Assembly (NCBI RefSeq): GCF_018687815.1
Contig: NZ_CP061306.1
Location: 1,178,001-1,242,000, forward strand
Direction: 5' to 3'
DNA length: 64,000 bases
Source of the DNA: Polynucleobacter sp. JS-JIR-II-b4
GTDB taxonomy: Bacteria; Pseudomonadota; Gammaproteobacteria; Burkholderiales; Burkholderiaceae
This document shows positions 13,215 to 17,952 of this stretch, piece by piece; position 1 is the first letter of the stretch, and each line of letters begins with the position of its first letter. The notes below the pieces were generated by a model. That model worked only from the letters and a program-made list of their open reading frames with translations. It ran no database searches and had not been told where the DNA came from. The position numbers were made by a program, and so were the translations under genes.

Positions 13215-13997
13215 CTAAGGCCTCACCCCTGGAGATTCTAGGGGTAGGCCTCTAGCTCGCCACATCAGAAACAGCTCTAACTGCGCCATCTCTGGCGAGC
13301 CATATTCAAATTGTTGCGCCCTCACACCGCTCATGCAGTTGCGTAGCCGTCTTTGCAATGAACCCAAGGTTTGCCACTCTAAGCGATAGATGGGATAGGC
13401 ATTGGGATGTCCTTGAGGTATTGGGCTACCGCCAAGCTTTAGGCCCGCCCTATCCTCGTGACATTGCGCACAAGATAAATTAAGCTGTCCCATACGCTCA
13501 TTAAATGACTGCCTGCCCTTTTTTAAGAAGGGTGCGTTAGCAGAATTTTCATTCACCGCAATTGGCATGCCCTTGGACTGAAATGCGATGAAGGCAGTTA
13601 AGGCTAAGAGATCTTTGCTCTCGTAGAGCAAGGCGGGGGCTGATTGAGTGCCGATTCGACACTGATTGATTTGGCCTTCCAGCGTTTGGAGTTTGCCTTT
13701 AATCACCTTAGGATATTGAGTAGCTACACCGCGCATGGATTTTTTTGCATCCCCATGACAAGTGCTACAAGCATTATTTTGTGGACCAAGCTTCTGTTGC
13801 CATAAACTTTCACCATCACCAACCCAAAACATTGCTGGATTGAGTGAAGGGTCATCTTGCATTGCCTTGTTCTCGGCAGACATCAACTCATAACTCGACT
13901 GCTGCAATGGCGGTACTGCTTTTGGAGCCCCCATGAATATAAGGCTAGCAAGTATTAGATAAATGCCACTCAGAAAAAAAGAAGTTTTCTTTTTCAC
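13215..13997 (-). CDS. soxA: diheme c-type cytochrome SoxA
   Basis: 260 aa with a signal peptide and two covalent heme sites, ACSTCHGD and SCAQCHED, so this is the diheme type. The active-site cysteine motif of SoxA is present as LRNCMSGVRAQ. SoxA with SoxX forms the periplasmic enzyme that joins a sulfur substrate to the cysteine arm of SoxYZ. The start is GTG, overlapping the soxZ stop by four bases (GTGA). It is the last gene of a leftward six-gene run. No soxB follows; the next gene is purU on the other strand. Confidence 0.92.
   Translation of the reverse strand: MKKKTSFFLSGIYLILASLIFMGAPKAVPPLQQSSYELMSAENKAMQDDPSLNPAMFWVGDGESLWQQKLGPQNNACSTCHGDAKKSMRGVATQYPKVIKGKLQTLEGQINQCRIGTQSAPALLYESKDLLALTAFIAFQSKGMPIAVNENSANAPFLKKGRQSFNERMGQLNLSCAQCHEDRAGLKLGGSPIPQGHPNAYPIYRLEWQTLGSLQRRLRNCMSGVRAQQFEYGSPEMAQLELFLMWRARGLPLESPGVRP
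13218..13251. terminator. candidate bidirectional terminator hairpin between purU and soxA
   Basis: AGGCCT-C-ACCCCT pairs with AGGGGT-A-GGCCT around a nine-base loop. The hairpin lies within the last codons of soxA and just after the purU stop. T-runs are poor on both sides, so efficiency is uncertain. Confidence 0.4.
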
Positions 13998-14323
13998 GAA
14001 ACAGTAATGTGAGACTGGTTGACTGCCTCATACCCATCATCCCCAGCCCATCTGAACTCGAGGGTTCCGGACTCAACAGCGATAGTGGTGAAGATGATTA
14101 AGGGATTAGCCCCTATTCCTGAATAGAAATCCGCTTTAAACACTTCCACAGTGTTGTAGGTGCAGGTAAAGGTACGAATAATATCGCGGGGAATGAGCTT
14201 GCCGCCCTCGGTATAGCGAAAACCTGACTCCATATCATGCTGCGCAATAGCGCGAATCTCAATAATGGAATCTTTTTTGGCCGTAGCTGGCATTGTGATG
14301 GATGTACGGGAAGTTTTACTCAT
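13994..14323 (-). CDS. soxZ: sulfur carrier subunit SoxZ
   Basis: 109 aa from the ATG at 14323 (MSKTSRTSITMP). The frame stays open further upstream, but that would run into soxY. The motifs fit SoxZ: IEIRAIAQHDMESGFRYTE, GGKLIPRDII and a C-terminal GTLEFRWAGDDGYE. SoxZ is the immunoglobulin-like partner of SoxY. The start overlaps the soxY stop as ATGA. A Shine-Dalgarno GGAG lies five bases upstream, inside the last soxY codons. Confidence 0.93.
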   Translation of the reverse strand: MSKTSRTSITMPATAKKDSIIEIRAIAQHDMESGFRYTEGGKLIPRDIIRTFTCTYNTVEVFKADFYSGIGANPLIIFTTIAVESGTLEFRWAGDDGYEAVNQSHITVS

Positions 14324-14796
14324 ACCATCTCCGTGCACGCTGAAAGGGTTACCAAAGTTTCGGCGGAGCCTTGCCAAAAACTACCATTACTCATTTGTGC
14401 AATAGCCCATACCTTCTGGCTATCAGCCAAACGGACACGCGTCGTAATGTTTGCAGTGCCCGAACGTGGAGTAAGGTAAACAGTAAAGATATTAGGCAAA
14501 GGATTGCCCTCGGCAATCACATGTATGGTCTTGACATAATCATTGGCTGTCATCGGACTATCTACACTAACCTTGAGCACGACTAAATTACCATTTTCCA
14601 CTAGCGGTGGAATAACCAGAGTGACTTTACCCTCCCGAATAGCAGCGCCACCGGTAATTTTTTTAATCGCTTCATCTGCCTCTTCTTTTTTAGCAAGGGC
14701 AGCTATCGGATTTAAACAAAAACCCAAGGCCAAAAGCCCAAGACCCTGGACTTGCTTTAGCCATTGCCTGCGATGGTTATGAATGATTTTCTTCAT
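14320..14796 (-). CDS. SoxY-related carrier protein with SACTE-type arm
   Basis: 158 aa. It has a Tat-like leader (HRRQWLKQVQGLGLLALGF) and a SoxY domain including GKVTLVIPPLVENGNLVVLK and PNIFTVYLTPRSGTANITTR. Classic SoxY ends in GGCGG, the swinging arm whose cysteine holds the sulfur intermediate. This one ends VTLSACTEMV: the cysteine (Cys154) is kept, the glycines are not. That resembles the SoxY-related proteins known for an AACIE-type arm rather than true SoxY. Its neighbours soxX, soxZ and soxA are intact, so a working carrier is likely, but not necessarily for thiosulfate. Confidence 0.88.
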   Translation of the reverse strand: MKKIIHNHRRQWLKQVQGLGLLALGFCLNPIAALAKKEEADEAIKKITGGAAIREGKVTLVIPPLVENGNLVVLKVSVDSPMTANDYVKTIHVIAEGNPLPNIFTVYLTPRSGTANITTRVRLADSQKVWAIAQMSNGSFWQGSAETLVTLSACTEMV

Positions 14797-14807
14797 CTCG
14801 ATTTCAG

Positions 14808-15248
14808 TTAATTTGTATTATTCAAAGTCACCAAGAAAGCAATAACATCTTCGATCTCTTGTCCGCTTAGTATTGTCTGCCCCGAAAACTTAGGGGCTAC
14901 ACGATTGAGGTGTTTAGTTTCATAATAAGCCGGCATGATCGTTTGTGGATTGAAGTGTGCTGCATTCACAATACGCGCCCTTAGTTGTGGGGCATTTAAG
15001 CGAGCCACGCTCATCTTCAGTTCAGGAGCTAAGTTCCCCTGAAAGCGCTCTTCTGGAAACGGGCCGCTGTGACATAGCAAACATAAACCTGTTTGACGAC
15101 TTGCCACAATCACTCTACCACGCACCGGATTGCCAGCCTCAGAAGAAAGGGATTCGAAAATCGAATCACCCACGATTACTTGAGCGTGCACAGCATTGAG
15201 ATTGAGGATGACTAGCAATGAAAATGCTAGTGCAATCCTCTTTCTCAT
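14808..15248 (-). CDS. soxX: monoheme c-type cytochrome SoxX
   Basis: 146 aa from the ATG at 15248 (a GTG two codons upstream is also possible). There is a signal peptide ending near VHAQ and a single heme site TGLCLLCHSGPF. The C-terminal half contains MPAYYETKHLNRVAPKFSG, with a methionine suitable as heme ligand, and LSGQEIEDVIAFLVTLN. It is the electron-accepting subunit of SoxXA. The gene begins only about 27 bases after the molybdenum hydroxylase gene, with no room for a strong separate promoter, so all six genes are probably one transcript. Confidence 0.92.
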   Translation of the reverse strand: MRKRIALAFSLLVILNLNAVHAQVIVGDSIFESLSSEAGNPVRGRVIVASRQTGLCLLCHSGPFPEERFQGNLAPELKMSVARLNAPQLRARIVNAAHFNPQTIMPAYYETKHLNRVAPKFSGQTILSGQEIEDVIAFLVTLNNTN

Positions 15249-15275
15249 CGACACAATGTCACTGTGAACTAACGC

Positions 15276-17492
15276 TTAAACTAGCTTGATACCGCTGTTT
15301 TTCAAAGGCACTGTGCGCAAGCGTTTGCCTGTTGCACGATAAATGGCATTGAGAACAGCTGGTGCAGCTACCGCAATCGTTGGTTCACCTACGCCACCCC
15401 ACTCTTTACCGCCACCTTGAATGATGATGGTTTCGACTTTTGGCATCTGATAGAGACGAATCGAGTTAAAGGTATCAAAGTTCTTCTGAACAACAGCACC
15501 TTTTTCAATCGTGATCTCTTCTTCGAATAAAGCGGATAAGCCATAAACAAAGGAGCCGGAGACCTGACGTGCAATTTGCGCAGGGTTAACTGCATAACCA
15601 GGATCGGTAGCGGCAACAATGCGATGAATCTTCACTTCATTGCCGTTAGTTACTGATAACTCGCAAGCTGCTGCTACGTAACTACCAAAGGAGCGCATTT
15701 GCGCAATGCCACGGTATACACCTGGTTTAGCTGGCTTAGTCCAGCCAATGCCATCAGCGACTGCATTGAGAACCGCTACAGCACGCGGGAAATTTTCCAT
15801 ATGCTTGCGACGGAACTCTACAGCATCCATACCAGTTGCTTCAGCCAACTCATCCATAAAGGTTTCAATAAAGATCGCATTTTGGTTTACGTTCACACCA
15901 CGCCAAAATCCGGGTGGTACATGGGTGTTACGCATTGCATGATCGATATTTAAATTTGGGAAGCTATAAGTAATGCCATGCTCACCTGTAGGCTCAACCC
16001 CTTGGAATGCCAACGGATCTTTACCTTTGTTCGCAGCGACTACAGCTGGACGCACCGCAGCCAGGATGGATTGACCTGACAAACGCATGTTAATACCAGT
16101 GACGTTTTTCTTGTCATCAATCGCTGCAGTCATCTTACACATCATTACGGGATGGTAACGACCCTGGGTCATATCCTCTTCACGGGTCCAAATCAGCTTG
16201 ATAGGAGTGCCCGGCATTTGCTTAGCAATATTGACCGCTTGTGTTGTGTAATCCTGGAAGGCTCCACGGCGACCAAATCCACCGCCAAGGTTCACCTTGT
16301 AGACATTACATTTTTCTGCAGGAAGTCCAGATGCAGCAATTACCGCTGCTAATGAAGCTTCACCGTCTTGGGTTGGAACCCAAGCCTCACAAGAGTCAGC
16401 AGTCCACTTCGCAGTCGCCGTTTGCGGCTCCAAAGTGGCGTGATTTAAAAATGGGTAGAAATATGTGGCCTCTAATTTCTTAGATGCGCCAGACATTGCC
16501 GCTTTAACATCACCATTAGTGTTGTGAACAAAAGCATCATCTGCATTTAAGCCCTCTTCCAACATCTTCTTAATGGAAGCACTGGAAACATTGCCATTAG
16601 TACCGCTATCCCAAACGATATTCACTTGGTCTAAAGCGGTTTTAGCTTGCCAGAAGGTATCTGCTACAACTGCTACCGCTGAGTCACCTACCTGAACTAC
16701 TTTCTTTACGCCTTTCATGCTTTGCGCTTTAGCCGCGTCGTAGCTCTTTACTTTGCCGCCAAACACTGGAGACTCTTTAATATTCGCCACCAACATACCT
16801 GGCATCTTCAAGTCAATTGCATAGACCTGTCGCCCAGTGACCTTGTCGGAAACGCCATCAATACGATTGACAGGCTTACCAATTAATGTCCACTCCCTTG
16901 GATCCTTCAATGGCACTTCTTTTGGCACTTCCAACTGTGATGCCGCTACAGATACCTTACCGAAAGTTGTCTTTTTGCCAGACGGAGTATGAGTAATCAC
17001 GCTATCTTTTGCTACGCATTCAGAAGCGGGAACGCCCCATTGATTTGCCGCAGCCTGAATCAACATCATGCGCGCAGCAGCTCCGCCCTTACGCACATAT
17101 TGCTCAGAAGTACGAATGCCACGGCTACCGCCAGTGGAATAGCTACCCCATGCCAGCTTACGCTTTAAATTCTCACCAGGTGATGGATAGTCATAAGAGA
17201 CTTTTTTCCAATCACATTGCAATTCTTCTGCAACCATCTGAGCTAAGCCAGTAATAGTGCCTTGACCCATTTCTGAGCGGACAATACGCACAACAACATC
17301 ATCATTCGGCTTAACTACAACCCAGATACCAATTTCTGGTGTGGCTAATGGAGTCATGGCAGTAGTGCCAGTACCCATAGCCGCATTTGCAGCAGACATA
17401 AAAGAAAGATCGAGGCCAATGGCTAAGCCAGTAGCAATGGCACTAGAGCCAATGACAAAATGGCGGCGGGAAGTATTTGTATTTGTAGTCAT
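15276..17492 (-). CDS. molybdopterin-binding subunit of an isoquinoline 1-oxidoreductase/aldehyde oxidase-type hydroxylase
   Basis: 738 aa from the ATG at 17492 (the open frame runs 34 codons further up, into the upstream gene). A Tat signal TSRRHFVIGSSAIA starts the protein, so the enzyme is exported folded with its cofactor. The xanthine-dehydrogenase-family fold shows GGGFGRRGAFQDY and RGVNVNQNAIFIETFMDELA (Mo-cofactor contacts). KEWGGVGEPTIAVAAPA carries the catalytic glutamate. Typical partners are a 2Fe-2S subunit, present upstream, and a membrane cytochrome c, absent here. Whether SoxX/SoxA serve as electron acceptor is my speculation. Confidence 0.9.
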   Translation of the reverse strand: MTTNTNTSRRHFVIGSSAIATGLAIGLDLSFMSAANAAMGTGTTAMTPLATPEIGIWVVVKPNDDVVVRIVRSEMGQGTITGLAQMVAEELQCDWKKVSYDYPSPGENLKRKLAWGSYSTGGSRGIRTSEQYVRKGGAAARMMLIQAAANQWGVPASECVAKDSVITHTPSGKKTTFGKVSVAASQLEVPKEVPLKDPREWTLIGKPVNRIDGVSDKVTGRQVYAIDLKMPGMLVANIKESPVFGGKVKSYDAAKAQSMKGVKKVVQVGDSAVAVVADTFWQAKTALDQVNIVWDSGTNGNVSSASIKKMLEEGLNADDAFVHNTNGDVKAAMSGASKKLEATYFYPFLNHATLEPQTATAKWTADSCEAWVPTQDGEASLAAVIAASGLPAEKCNVYKVNLGGGFGRRGAFQDYTTQAVNIAKQMPGTPIKLIWTREEDMTQGRYHPVMMCKMTAAIDDKKNVTGINMRLSGQSILAAVRPAVVAANKGKDPLAFQGVEPTGEHGITYSFPNLNIDHAMRNTHVPPGFWRGVNVNQNAIFIETFMDELAEATGMDAVEFRRKHMENFPRAVAVLNAVADGIGWTKPAKPGVYRGIAQMRSFGSYVAAACELSVTNGNEVKIHRIVAATDPGYAVNPAQIARQVSGSFVYGLSALFEEEITIEKGAVVQKNFDTFNSIRLYQMPKVETIIIQGGGKEWGGVGEPTIAVAAPAVLNAIYRATGKRLRTVPLKNSGIKLV

Positions 17493-17502
17493 GTTTTTCC
17501 CC

Positions 17503-17952
17503 TTAAGCCTTGCTAGCTGCATGAATCGCTGCACGCACTTGCTGGAATGTGCCGCAGCGGCAGATATTAGTAATGGACTCGTCGATTTGTGCATCAGTAG
17601 GCTTTGGATTGTTTCTTAACAAAGCGGTGGTTGCCATCACCATGCCGGACTGACAGTAACCACACTGAGGCACTTGATTGTCGACCCACGCTTTTTGAAC
17701 TTTAGAAAGCTGACCACTCTTCTCTAAACTTTCAATAGTCTCGATTTTTTTTCCTTCAGCTGCAGCTACTGGAATAGAGCAGCTACGAATGGCCTGACCC
17801 TCAAACAACACTGTGCACGCACCGCATTGACCAACTCCACATCCATACTTAGTGCCGGTTAAACCGACCTGTTCGCGGATTACCCAAAGCAATGGGGTTT
17901 CTGGATCAACGTCCACCTTGTATTTTTTACCATTGACATTCAATTCAGCCAT
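17503..17952 (-). CDS. 2Fe-2S subunit of the molybdenum hydroxylase
   Basis: 149 aa, the usual size for the small subunit of the isoquinoline oxidoreductase/IorA type. The plant-type 2Fe-2S site is YGCGVGQCGACTVLFEG with a further Cys in AIRSCSIPVA. The second, helical 2Fe-2S site is CGYCQSGM plus ICRCGTFQQVRAAI. It passes electrons from the molybdenum site. It is the first gene of the leftward run, with 10 bases to the large subunit. A candidate promoter lies at 18022-18049. Confidence 0.93.
   Translation of the reverse strand: MAELNVNGKKYKVDVDPETPLLWVIREQVGLTGTKYGCGVGQCGACTVLFEGQAIRSCSIPVAAAEGKKIETIESLEKSGQLSKVQKAWVDNQVPQCGYCQSGMVMATTALLRNNPKPTDAQIDESITNICRCGTFQQVRAAIHAASKA

Follow-up and report, generated by a model that had tools for sequence, protein, structure and literature searches.

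SoxYZ carriers and their partner enzymes

The closest described relative of the locus reported here lies in Starkeya novella, where soxX2Y2Z2A2F2 and an XO-family molybdenum enzyme (Snov_1975/1976) form one operon, according to the accessible text of PMC3797975. As reported there, expression of this second cluster is very low on glucose, methanol and thiosulfate, and its SoxAX and SoxYZ proteins were undetected; it is therefore not thiosulfate machinery in that organism. The authors of PMC3797975 suggested that the cluster is without functional significance, and the operon type was published without an assigned function. The preliminary description of the present locus, in which such a system was said to be new, thus has to be amended as regards the operon type, while the partnership that it proposed is real. 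The S. novella cluster resembles the present one in combining SoxXYZA, without SoxB/SoxCD, with a two-gene XO-family molybdenum enzyme in the same operon, and in the presence of a complete sox set elsewhere in the genome. Compared by its published text, as far as accessible, it differs in that it includes a SoxF flavocytochrome, whereas here the gene of FCSD/SoxF type is found at another place in the genome, outside the locus. A sox set and an XO-family enzyme appear together in PMC3797975, and in none of the accessible passages of PMC5748708, PMC3308952, PMC2864759, PMC12997753 and PMC10708946.

Another SoxYZ-like carrier, PP_2677/PP_2678 with SoxH, is associated with a quinoprotein dehydrogenase (PMC12997753, accessible part). 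This TIGR04557/SoxH system is alike in that its carrier, of SoxYZ type, goes with a dehydrogenase of the periplasm instead of with thiosulfate. However, it joins a Y-Z fusion to a PQQ alcohol dehydrogenase, whereas two proteins and a molybdenum hydroxylase are found here: soxY2 and soxZ2 are two separate genes, whose products score 54.5 and 24.3 bits against the fused SoxYZ family TIGR04557 (cut-off 140). With canonical Sox (SoxXA, SoxYZ, SoxB, SoxCD), the locus shares a loading cytochrome and a carrier with retained cysteines, as well as a molybdoenzyme partner, but it is without SoxB/SoxCD, the carrier has a SACTE arm instead of GGCGG, and the molybdoenzyme is of a different family.

The six-gene block and its products

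In the window, that is, the whole 64-kb stretch of Polynucleobacter DNA analysed, the minus-strand block iorA-iorB-soxX-soxY-soxZ-soxA occupies positions 13215-17952, with all six reading frames intact (Table 1). The tight co-directional arrangement previously described was confirmed, the spacing being at most 21 bases (iorA-iorB 10, iorB-soxX 21, soxX-soxY 11), with 4-base overlaps, ATGA and GTGA, at soxY/soxZ and soxZ/soxA. Over the whole stretch, 3 promoter-like sites were scored against 7.3 in shuffles (sd 2.6), and 9 terminator-like sites against 4.4 (sd 2.0). Two terminator-like sites lie inside soxX (15151-15186). The start codon of soxX2 is GTG, with an ATG two codons downstream, and that of soxA2 is a GTG overlapping the soxZ stop.

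Table 1. Genes and key codons of the block, numbered from the first base of the window
Feature	Position	Strand	Remarks
iorA-like, small [2Fe-2S] subunit, XO-family molybdenum hydroxylase	17503..17952	(-)	149 aa; Fer2 and Fer2_2 above cut-off
iorB-like, large molybdopterin subunit	15276..17492	(-)	738 aa; MoCoBD_1/2; 8gy3_C match; Sox-linked clade
IorB Glu703 codon, motif GGVGEP	15384..15386	(-)	Glu invariant in alignment; role presumed from family
soxX2, monoheme cytochrome c (CLLCH)	14808..15254	(-)	TIGR04485; 1h31_B
soxY2, carrier, SACTE arm replacing GGCGG	14320..14796	(-)	TIGR04487
SoxY2 arm Cys154 codon	14335..14337	(-)	Aligned with 2ox5 arm Cys
soxZ2, SoxY2 partner	13994..14323	(-)	PF08770; 2ox5_Z
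soxA2, diheme SoxA (CSTCH, CAQCH)	13215..13997	(-)	TIGR04484; 1h31_A
SoxA2 active-site cysteine codon, NCMSGVR	13335..13337	(-)	Aligned to cysteine in 1h31 and 2c1d; role presumed

Profile searches identified Fer2 and Fer2_2 domains in IorA, where no signal peptide was seen by eye, and MoCoBD_1, MoCoBD_2 and Ald_Xan_dh_C domains in IorB, whose N-terminus has, by eye, a twin-arginine start (SRRHFV). The position equivalent to IorB Glu703, presumably the catalytic base as in other XO-family enzymes, is Glu in 71/71 clade members and in 14/14 other aligned sequences, and IorAB thereby has the marks of a two-subunit molybdenum hydroxylase of the XO family: a small protein with Fer2/Fer2_2, a large one with MoCoBD domains, and the Glu expected at the active site. 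IorB Trp698 is a clade-specific residue. No NCBIfam equivalog reaches its cut-off for IorA or IorB (IorB best 166.9 versus 780), and neither subunit is thus assigned to a named class of substrates. The closest solved chain to IorB is 8gy3_C (249.6 bits, over IorB residues 6-735), from an aldehyde dehydrogenase, presumably of an acetic acid bacterium. With respect to this enzyme and to IorAB-type hydroxylases, the present one differs by a cluster without a cytochrome subunit and by a distinct, SoxYZ-tied clade. The missing cytochrome c subunit had been pointed out in the preliminary description; none is indeed encoded in the cluster, but two-subunit IorAB-type enzymes are usually without one.

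On the Sox side, SoxX2 reaches 73.0 bits against TIGR04485 (cut-off 61) and 61.7 bits against 1h31_B, with 0 Pfam matches, and SoxA2 reaches 223.8 bits against TIGR04484 (cut-off 110) and 146.3 bits against 1h31_A. SoxZ2 stays under the cut-off of TIGR04490 (66.9 bits, cut-off 76) and is recognised by Pfam SoxZ PF08770 (73.4 bits, cut-off 25), its solved-chain match being 2ox5_Z. As previously described, SoxXA keeps its heme motifs and the NCMSGVR cysteine, presumably the active site by family role, which aligns with a cysteine of 1h31 (diheme SoxA) and of 2c1d; SoxXA is in this respect that of canonical Sox. SoxY2, which by eye also has a twin-arginine start (HRRQWLK), passes the curated cut-off of TIGR04487 ('SoxY-related AACIE arm protein', SoxY_para_1, NCBIfam; 225.5 bits, cut-off 172), a protein family alone, whose displayed name gives no pathway or partner, and falls below that of true SoxY, TIGR04488 (98.9 bits, cut-off 125). 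The canonical GGCGG arm is absent from SoxY2, whose C-terminal arm reads SACTEMV; the arm cysteine, Cys154, aligns with that of 2ox5 and is invariant across 25 aligned sequences, SoxY2 of the locus counted in. Judged from sequence, these matches to solved chains settle the protein folds.

A hydroxylase clade linked to the carrier

Among 399 genomes of the order, the SoxY type is found in 67 and the hydroxylase clade in 75, both being present in 65, while 2 genomes have the SoxY type alone and 10 the clade alone (Fisher p 3e-61, kinship ignored), with thresholds (SoxY E <= 1e-30, IorB E <= 1e-170) that were both set after score gaps had been seen. The hydroxylase lies at most 4 kb from soxY in 121 of the 135 surveyed loci, and iorB has soxX, soxY and soxA nearby in 100 of them, a recurrence that excludes a chance arrangement. 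Set A consists of the best 80 of 543 matches, mostly from Polynucleobacter and Bradyrhizobium; set B consists of 40 loci from the upper part of the SoxY list of the order and 7 later ones of the same arm type, leaves out hydroxylase-clade loci without such a SoxY, and may share genomes with set A. Even divergent iorAB and sox halves are still linked, in L154 (two intervening ORFs) and in L315.

In the IorB tree, 66 linked IorB and 5 unlinked copies form one clade (SH-aLRT 100), set apart from 15 other XO-family paralogues, which have no Sox gene within the 4.5-7 kb fetched around each; this is a quick tree with SH-aLRT support only, including 20 of the 80 set A loci, picked for spread. Across 61 loci, IorB and SoxYZ distances are correlated (Mantel r 0.76, equalled in 0/2000 permutations), and kinship accounts for part of both this correlation and the co-occurrence. 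For soxXYZA2 loci without adjacent iorAB and clear of contig edges, 8 of 9 genomes have a clade member elsewhere; in G382, the carrier set is present and no member of the hydroxylase clade was found. Seven genomes have the clade but no linked carrier (G141, G224, G248, G319, G329, G245 and G271, the contig ending at the hydroxylase locus in the last two), and the enzyme is therefore apparently able to work alone.

The arm follows the same division, since GGC is found in 0/64 IorAB-linked SoxY versus 25/25 SoxB-linked SoxY. In a phylum sample, iorAB is present in 8/8 fetched non-redundant loci with TIGR04487-type matches above ~158 bits (L180-L187) and in 0/29 loci with matches at 92-144 bits (L188-L216), many of them canonical soxB sets, which rules out that all TIGR04487 matches are of the IorAB-linked type. 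Locus L217 of the order set has iorAB at only 80 bits; score alone is therefore no clean divide.

Taken together, these data make a dedicated coupling of IorAB and SoxYZ2 well supported. The preliminary description would have given way to a separate promoter and no conserved linkage between hydroxylase and soxX; what was found is a linkage conserved across genomes, with one IorB clade, also where SoxB was not found, and an iorB-soxX junction with 0 promoter-like and 0 terminator-like sites scored in its 21 bases.

Canonical sox genes and minimal clusters

Neither soxB nor soxCD was found in the window, and SoxB is not encoded with the set at this locus. A canonical soxCDYZAXB cluster is present in the same genome at C1:847940-854584, ~340 kb from the second set, with soxB at C1:852851-854584 and soxD assigned from position and weak cytochrome matches. 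The cell therefore has soxB although the window lacks it, which rules out 'no soxB' as a trait of the organism: the earlier claim of a set without soxB stands for the window and falls for the genome, and the soxB/soxCD locus elsewhere is half of what had been named as counting against it. SoxB and SoxCD of this genome could in principle act on SoxY2. Among the 50 higher-scoring of the 67 genomes with this SoxY type, most of them drafts, SoxB is above cut-off in 38 and was not found in 11, 7 of which are at least 97% complete. The carrier has a changed arm and occurs without SoxB.

Minimal iorAB-soxYZ clusters, without soxX and soxA at the locus, make up 16 of the 47 set B loci, further cases being L118 (contig edge) and L095. 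A search for SoxA located soxA elsewhere in 16/16 minimal-type genomes tested (including G322, which carries the edge locus), and SoxA is present in 71/75 clade-bearing genomes versus 127/324 others.

Proposed pathway and alternatives

The best explanation, to which we assign a probability of roughly 0.45, is that the products of the block form a pathway around the SoxYZ carrier, located in the periplasm and separate from thiosulfate oxidation, in which the carrier arm is loaded by SoxXA and the group bound to it is oxidised by IorAB, the dedicated enzyme from the XO family. In such a pathway, SoxXA2, or another SoxXA of the genome, would oxidatively couple a sulfur-bearing substrate, at a guess an organic thiol or thio-compound, to Cys154 of the SACTE arm, and the loaded arm would present the bound group to IorAB, which would oxidise it with oxygen from water and hand the electrons to c-type cytochromes by way of its [2Fe-2S] subunit. 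IorAB would thereby take the role held in the canonical cycle by SoxCD, which is also a molybdoenzyme. This chemistry, including SoxXA loading, the step that IorAB would catalyse on the arm and the route of the electrons, is what we infer, as is the identity of the enzyme processing the loaded substrate. The second sox set looks like a separate pathway because relatives retain the same carrier-hydroxylase pairing. More tentatively, it may represent a third kind of SoxYZ-carrier pathway in Alpha- and Betaproteobacteria, beside the thiosulfate and quinoprotein-linked ones, in which SoxXA would tether an organic thiol to the specialised arm and the XO-family hydroxylase would oxidise this thiol, while tethered, at a carbon centre. 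XO-family enzymes normally act on C-H bonds of soluble substrates; to our knowledge, none acts on a protein-bound substrate, and this one would be the first.

It is rather unlikely, although no new XO-family chemistry would be required, that the two halves work in sequence, IorAB hydroxylating a free organosulfur compound (S-heterocycle, thio-aldehyde or similar) and the freed reduced sulfur being caught by SoxXA2/SoxYZ2 and the sulfide dehydrogenase SoxF. This would fit a SoxF-type flavoprotein gene (FCSD domains in 3/3 tested) that separates iorB from soxY in 34 of the 80 set A loci, all within L073-L114 and with alphaproteobacterial titles apart from few exceptions. No soxF was seen by eye among the neighbouring ORFs of the present locus; FCSD is found in 17/18 other genomes tested, its own among them (C1:1259285), and not in G016. 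However, a sequential pathway leaves unexplained the differing arm in 64/64 linked carriers, as well as the minimal pairs L221, L223 and L224, whose genomes have another Sox set, with a GGC arm, to which the capture of free sulfur could fall.

SoxY arms are able to carry sulfane sulfur, and SoxYZ2 might thus be a persulfide donor through which the exported hydroxylase acquires or restores its terminal Mo=S ligand, which we consider quite improbable. Such a role would account for iorAB-soxYZ pairs without SoxB, and XO-family molybdenum carries an equatorial sulfur ligand (PMC2997495, accessible text). Nevertheless, the usual maturase XdhC is encoded in 17/17 genomes tested, one of them being G076, whose sole MoCoBD_1 match is this IorB. 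The presence of XdhC weakens SoxYZ2 as the only source of Mo=S sulfur; besides, the 15 other XO-family paralogues manage without a neighbouring Sox gene.

Two further proposals have little probability. A spare thiosulfate/sulfide module feeding canonical SoxB/SoxCD, with the hydroxylase as unrelated passenger, would agree with the canonical set of this genome and with SoxB in most of the 50 genomes, but not with the 11 where SoxB was not found, nor with the linkage, clades and arm differences described above, nor, provided that soxY2 of Bradyrhizobium diazoefficiens is of the present type, with the need for soxY1 only in thiosulfate oxidation by that species (earlier work cited in the accessible text of PMC5748708). 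SoxXA2 merely accepting IorAB electrons in place of the missing cytochrome subunit, with SoxYZ2 of minor importance, in redox or as a chaperone, would suit two adjoining c-type cytochromes in a cluster without a cytochrome gene of IorAB's own, but minimal clusters retain SoxYZ and lose SoxXA from the locus, and the SoxA2 active-site cysteine is kept although superfluous for simple electron transfer.

Significance

Duplicate sox genes are commonly taken as spare thiosulfate machinery. Since an arm and an enzyme clade of its own, together with an occurrence without SoxB, distinguish this paralogue, 'sox genes present' need not imply that freshwater and soil bacteria, Polynucleobacter and Bradyrhizobium among them, oxidise sulfur. 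With four to six genes, the locus offers a small and tractable set for finding what a SoxYZ arm carries besides thiosulfate.

The cluster and its genome

The run of six Sox and molybdenum hydroxylase genes reported in the preliminary description was confirmed, with open genes, the families as claimed and tight spacing (gaps of 10, 21 and 11 bases, then two 4-base overlaps). IorB is the large subunit of a xanthine oxidase (XO)-family enzyme, with 8gy3_C as its closest PDB chain, while the diheme-type SoxA aligns with 1h31, its cysteine being in register, and SoxX, SoxY and SoxZ match solved Sox chains too. According to family profile scores, SoxY is not a true SoxY and belongs to TIGR04487 ("SoxY-related AACIE arm protein"), and SoxZ falls below the true-SoxZ cut-off. 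Since twin-arginine motifs were read by eye at the starts of IorB and SoxY, both proteins are expected to be exported.

The genome (2.02 Mb, single contig, 99.98% complete) also carries a canonical sox set outside the window, whose SoxB (865 bits) and SoxC (597.7) are both over cut-off and whose SoxD is assigned from its position and weak cytochrome matches only. The absence of soxB, on which the proposal of a possibly new system had partly rested, is therefore a trait of the cluster and not of the cell. MoCoBD_1, a domain of XO-family large subunits, occurs in four proteins of this genome.

Coordinates of the features discussed (plain numbers count within the window, which spans C1:1178001-1242000; C1 is the contig holding it)
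Feature	Position	Strand	Basis or remark
iorA, iorB, soxX, soxY, soxZ, soxA	13215-17952	minus	reading frames and family scores
soxC, soxD, soxY (GGCGG), soxZ, soxA, soxX, soxB	C1:847940-854584		same genome, outside the window
FCSD/SoxF-type protein	C1:1259285		
XdhC	C1:974951		
Second Sox-linked-clade IorB (L239)	G000:C1:425297-427489		window's genome; no sox neighbours
IorB of a SoxB-less genome	G012:C11:264578-266752		clade member; one in-frame TAG in the match, from gene disruption or an assembly fault

Conserved association of enzyme and carrier

Linkage, defined as iorB lying at most 4 kb from soxY, was surveyed in three locus sets (80 + 47 + 8 = 135) and was found in 72/80 loci of set A (the best 80 of 543 matches to the window SoxY among named relatives), in 41/47 loci of the order and in 8/8 of a phylum sample. 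The suggested hydroxylase-carrier link is thus conserved in 121 of 135 loci. Polynucleobacter provides the nearest named relatives among these best 80 of 543 matches; in its loci the six genes mostly stay together and the flanking genes vary, some including ABC transporter genes and a peptidase that by eye resembles DapE. At L315 the enzyme half lies directly beside the Sox half in divergent orientation, and at L154 two ORFs separate the divergent halves. At L133, iorA is flanked by two IorB genes beside Sox genes, the same genome holding a second IorAB-Sox locus, L122. The cluster was also met in a metagenome bin titled Klebsiella pneumoniae (L089), which is most likely mislabelled or mixed because its IorB pairs with that of L122, from a Burkholderiales-order genome.

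A phylogeny of 86 IorB-type proteins unites the 66 Sox-linked sequences with 5 unlinked ones in a single clade (SH-aLRT 100) and leaves outside it another 15 XO-family paralogues, many of which come from those same genomes; the XA/XAF labels of this tree are inexact for set A, where SoxF was unscored at that stage. Glu703, the catalytic base expected from the family role, is kept in 71/71 clade members, and Trp698, five residues ahead and a candidate for lining the channel, is present in 71/71 compared to 0/14 sequences from beyond the clade, which have Pro (9), Ser (4) or Ala (1) there. In the SoxY+SoxZ tree (111 rows), a single branch with support 98 separates two groups: one contains every one of the 25 SoxB-linked carriers along with 14 others, the other every one of the 64 IorAB-linked carriers along with 8 that share their arm type. 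Besides, GG directly precedes the arm cysteine in 25/25 SoxB-linked but 0/64 IorAB-linked carriers, the latter having AA (33), SA (16) or mixed residues. IorB and SoxYZ distances correlate (Mantel r 0.76, 61 loci), part of which will be owed to kinship alone.

Five of the 14 loci without linked iorB lie near contig edges (L045, L087, L090, L113, L140). Four of their genomes were searched: a clade member is present in G349 (L140), G768 (L087) and G770 (L113), whereas G769 (L090) yielded a 60%-identity fragment plus one full-length protein that falls outside the clade. The other nine belong to G764, G765, G766, G767, G382, G293, G131, G263 and G097, eight of which hold a clade member elsewhere (seven placed in the tree, G097 by score only, 941 bits), the exception being G382, whose sole candidate IorB falls in another branch. 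In G764, G765 and G766, the soxXYZA2 sets are without iorAB, and the sole clade members found are close relatives of the L239 IorB.

Across the order (399 genomes), the SoxY type occurs in 67 genomes and the IorB clade, judged by score, in 75, with 65 holding both. Only G368 and G382 have the SoxY type alone; as the short contig with the SoxY of G368 also bears fragments of IorB, G382 alone remains. Regarding the ten genomes with the IorB clade only, a more divergent SoxY adjoins IorB in G125 (L307) and G198 (L217), G097 has an AAC-armed Sox set elsewhere (L305), and the IorB contigs of G245 and G271 stop at an edge. The other five (G141, G224, G248, G319, G329) have a clade IorB without linked carrier, which argues against the enzyme strictly requiring it.

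Core and accessory components

Of 50 genomes examined for SoxB, 38 gave a match over cut-off; of the remaining 12, eight gave no match, three weak matches only (G039, G016, G012; none above 90.6 bits, the cut-off being 550) and one a fragment (G393, 331 bits). Seven of 11 SoxB-less genomes are at least 97% complete (G169, G039, G140, G065, G016, G181, G012), G140 and G181 showing 5% contamination. From these genomes, SoxB is not needed by the IorAB-SoxYZ pair.

The locus is reduced to iorA-iorB-soxY-soxZ, soxX and soxA being gone, in 16 loci of the order and in L095, and L118 shows the same form at a contig edge. SoxA is encoded elsewhere in 16/16 minimal-form genomes tested, and is present in 71/75 clade-bearing genomes compared to 127/324 others; the four lacking it have truncated cluster contigs (G210, G330) or an unlinked IorB (G141, G319). 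SoxXA thus seems to be a required helper, which another part of the genome may supply. SoxF lies between iorB and soxY in 34/80 set A loci (best 80 of 543), and is a frequent extra in alphaproteobacterial loci. These counts therefore define the core as the IorAB enzyme and the SoxYZ carrier.

Further Sox sets were met. In the five SoxB-less Burkholderiales-order genomes whose SoxA locus was retrieved (L220-L224), SoxA is divergent and sits in yet another set with a SoxX-like gene and SoxYZ, whose arm is GGC in the three readable cases (L221, L223, L224); an M48-peptidase-like gene (by eye) lies beside it, as does a moaC-like gene in L222 and L224, and comparable sets were seen in two genomes that do have SoxB (L225, L226). 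In L218 and L219, an SGCGM-armed SoxYZ, perhaps another carrier variant, adjoins two SoxF-like flavoproteins, and neither soxXA nor soxB scored in the fetched stretches. An NGCK-armed SoxYZ lies near a SoxF-type gene at L206, in a genome that also holds the IorAB-linked set L181.

Relation to published work and proposed mechanism

In PMC3797975, Starkeya novella is described as having soxX2Y2Z2A2F2 with an XO-family enzyme; very low expression is reported, SoxAX and SoxYZ proteins of this second cluster being undetected, while one SoxF subunit was present in small amounts in all conditions but glucose. Its authors suggest that the cluster either is functionally unimportant or acts under conditions they had not tested. 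Unlike in that cluster, the FCSD/SoxF-type protein of the genome studied here is encoded apart. According to PMC3308952, a strain of Polynucleobacter has three sox clusters, among them a four-gene one (Pnuc_1154-1157), and shares part of its sox genes with Bradyrhizobium but not Cupriavidus; "isoquinoline" and "molybd" are absent from its main text. Given PMC3797975 and the TIGR04487 name, the operon type is therefore already in print and the SoxY family already named. In the portions of the literature searched, no mention was found of the dedicated clades, the reduced enzyme-carrier form, the SoxB-less occurrence or the arm rule.

Among Sox components, SoxCD is a molybdoenzyme. Thiosulfate is bound on the SoxYZ cysteine with release of two electrons, as stated in part of PMC5748708, and SoxXA is the coupling enzyme, SoxB and SoxCD working on the bound chain, as stated in part of PMC2864759. 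Taken together, the data support the interpretation of the preliminary description in part and make coupling of IorAB with SoxYZ2 highly probable (about 0.9). The precise sequence of events, in which SoxXA would load the arm and IorAB would oxidise the bound group, is proposed more tentatively, at slightly under even odds. An organic thiol as arm cargo is a guess, made because the XO family usually attacks C-H bonds. The simplest fit would be that IorAB, a second molybdoenzyme travelling with a modified carrier, acts on whatever SoxYZ2 holds.
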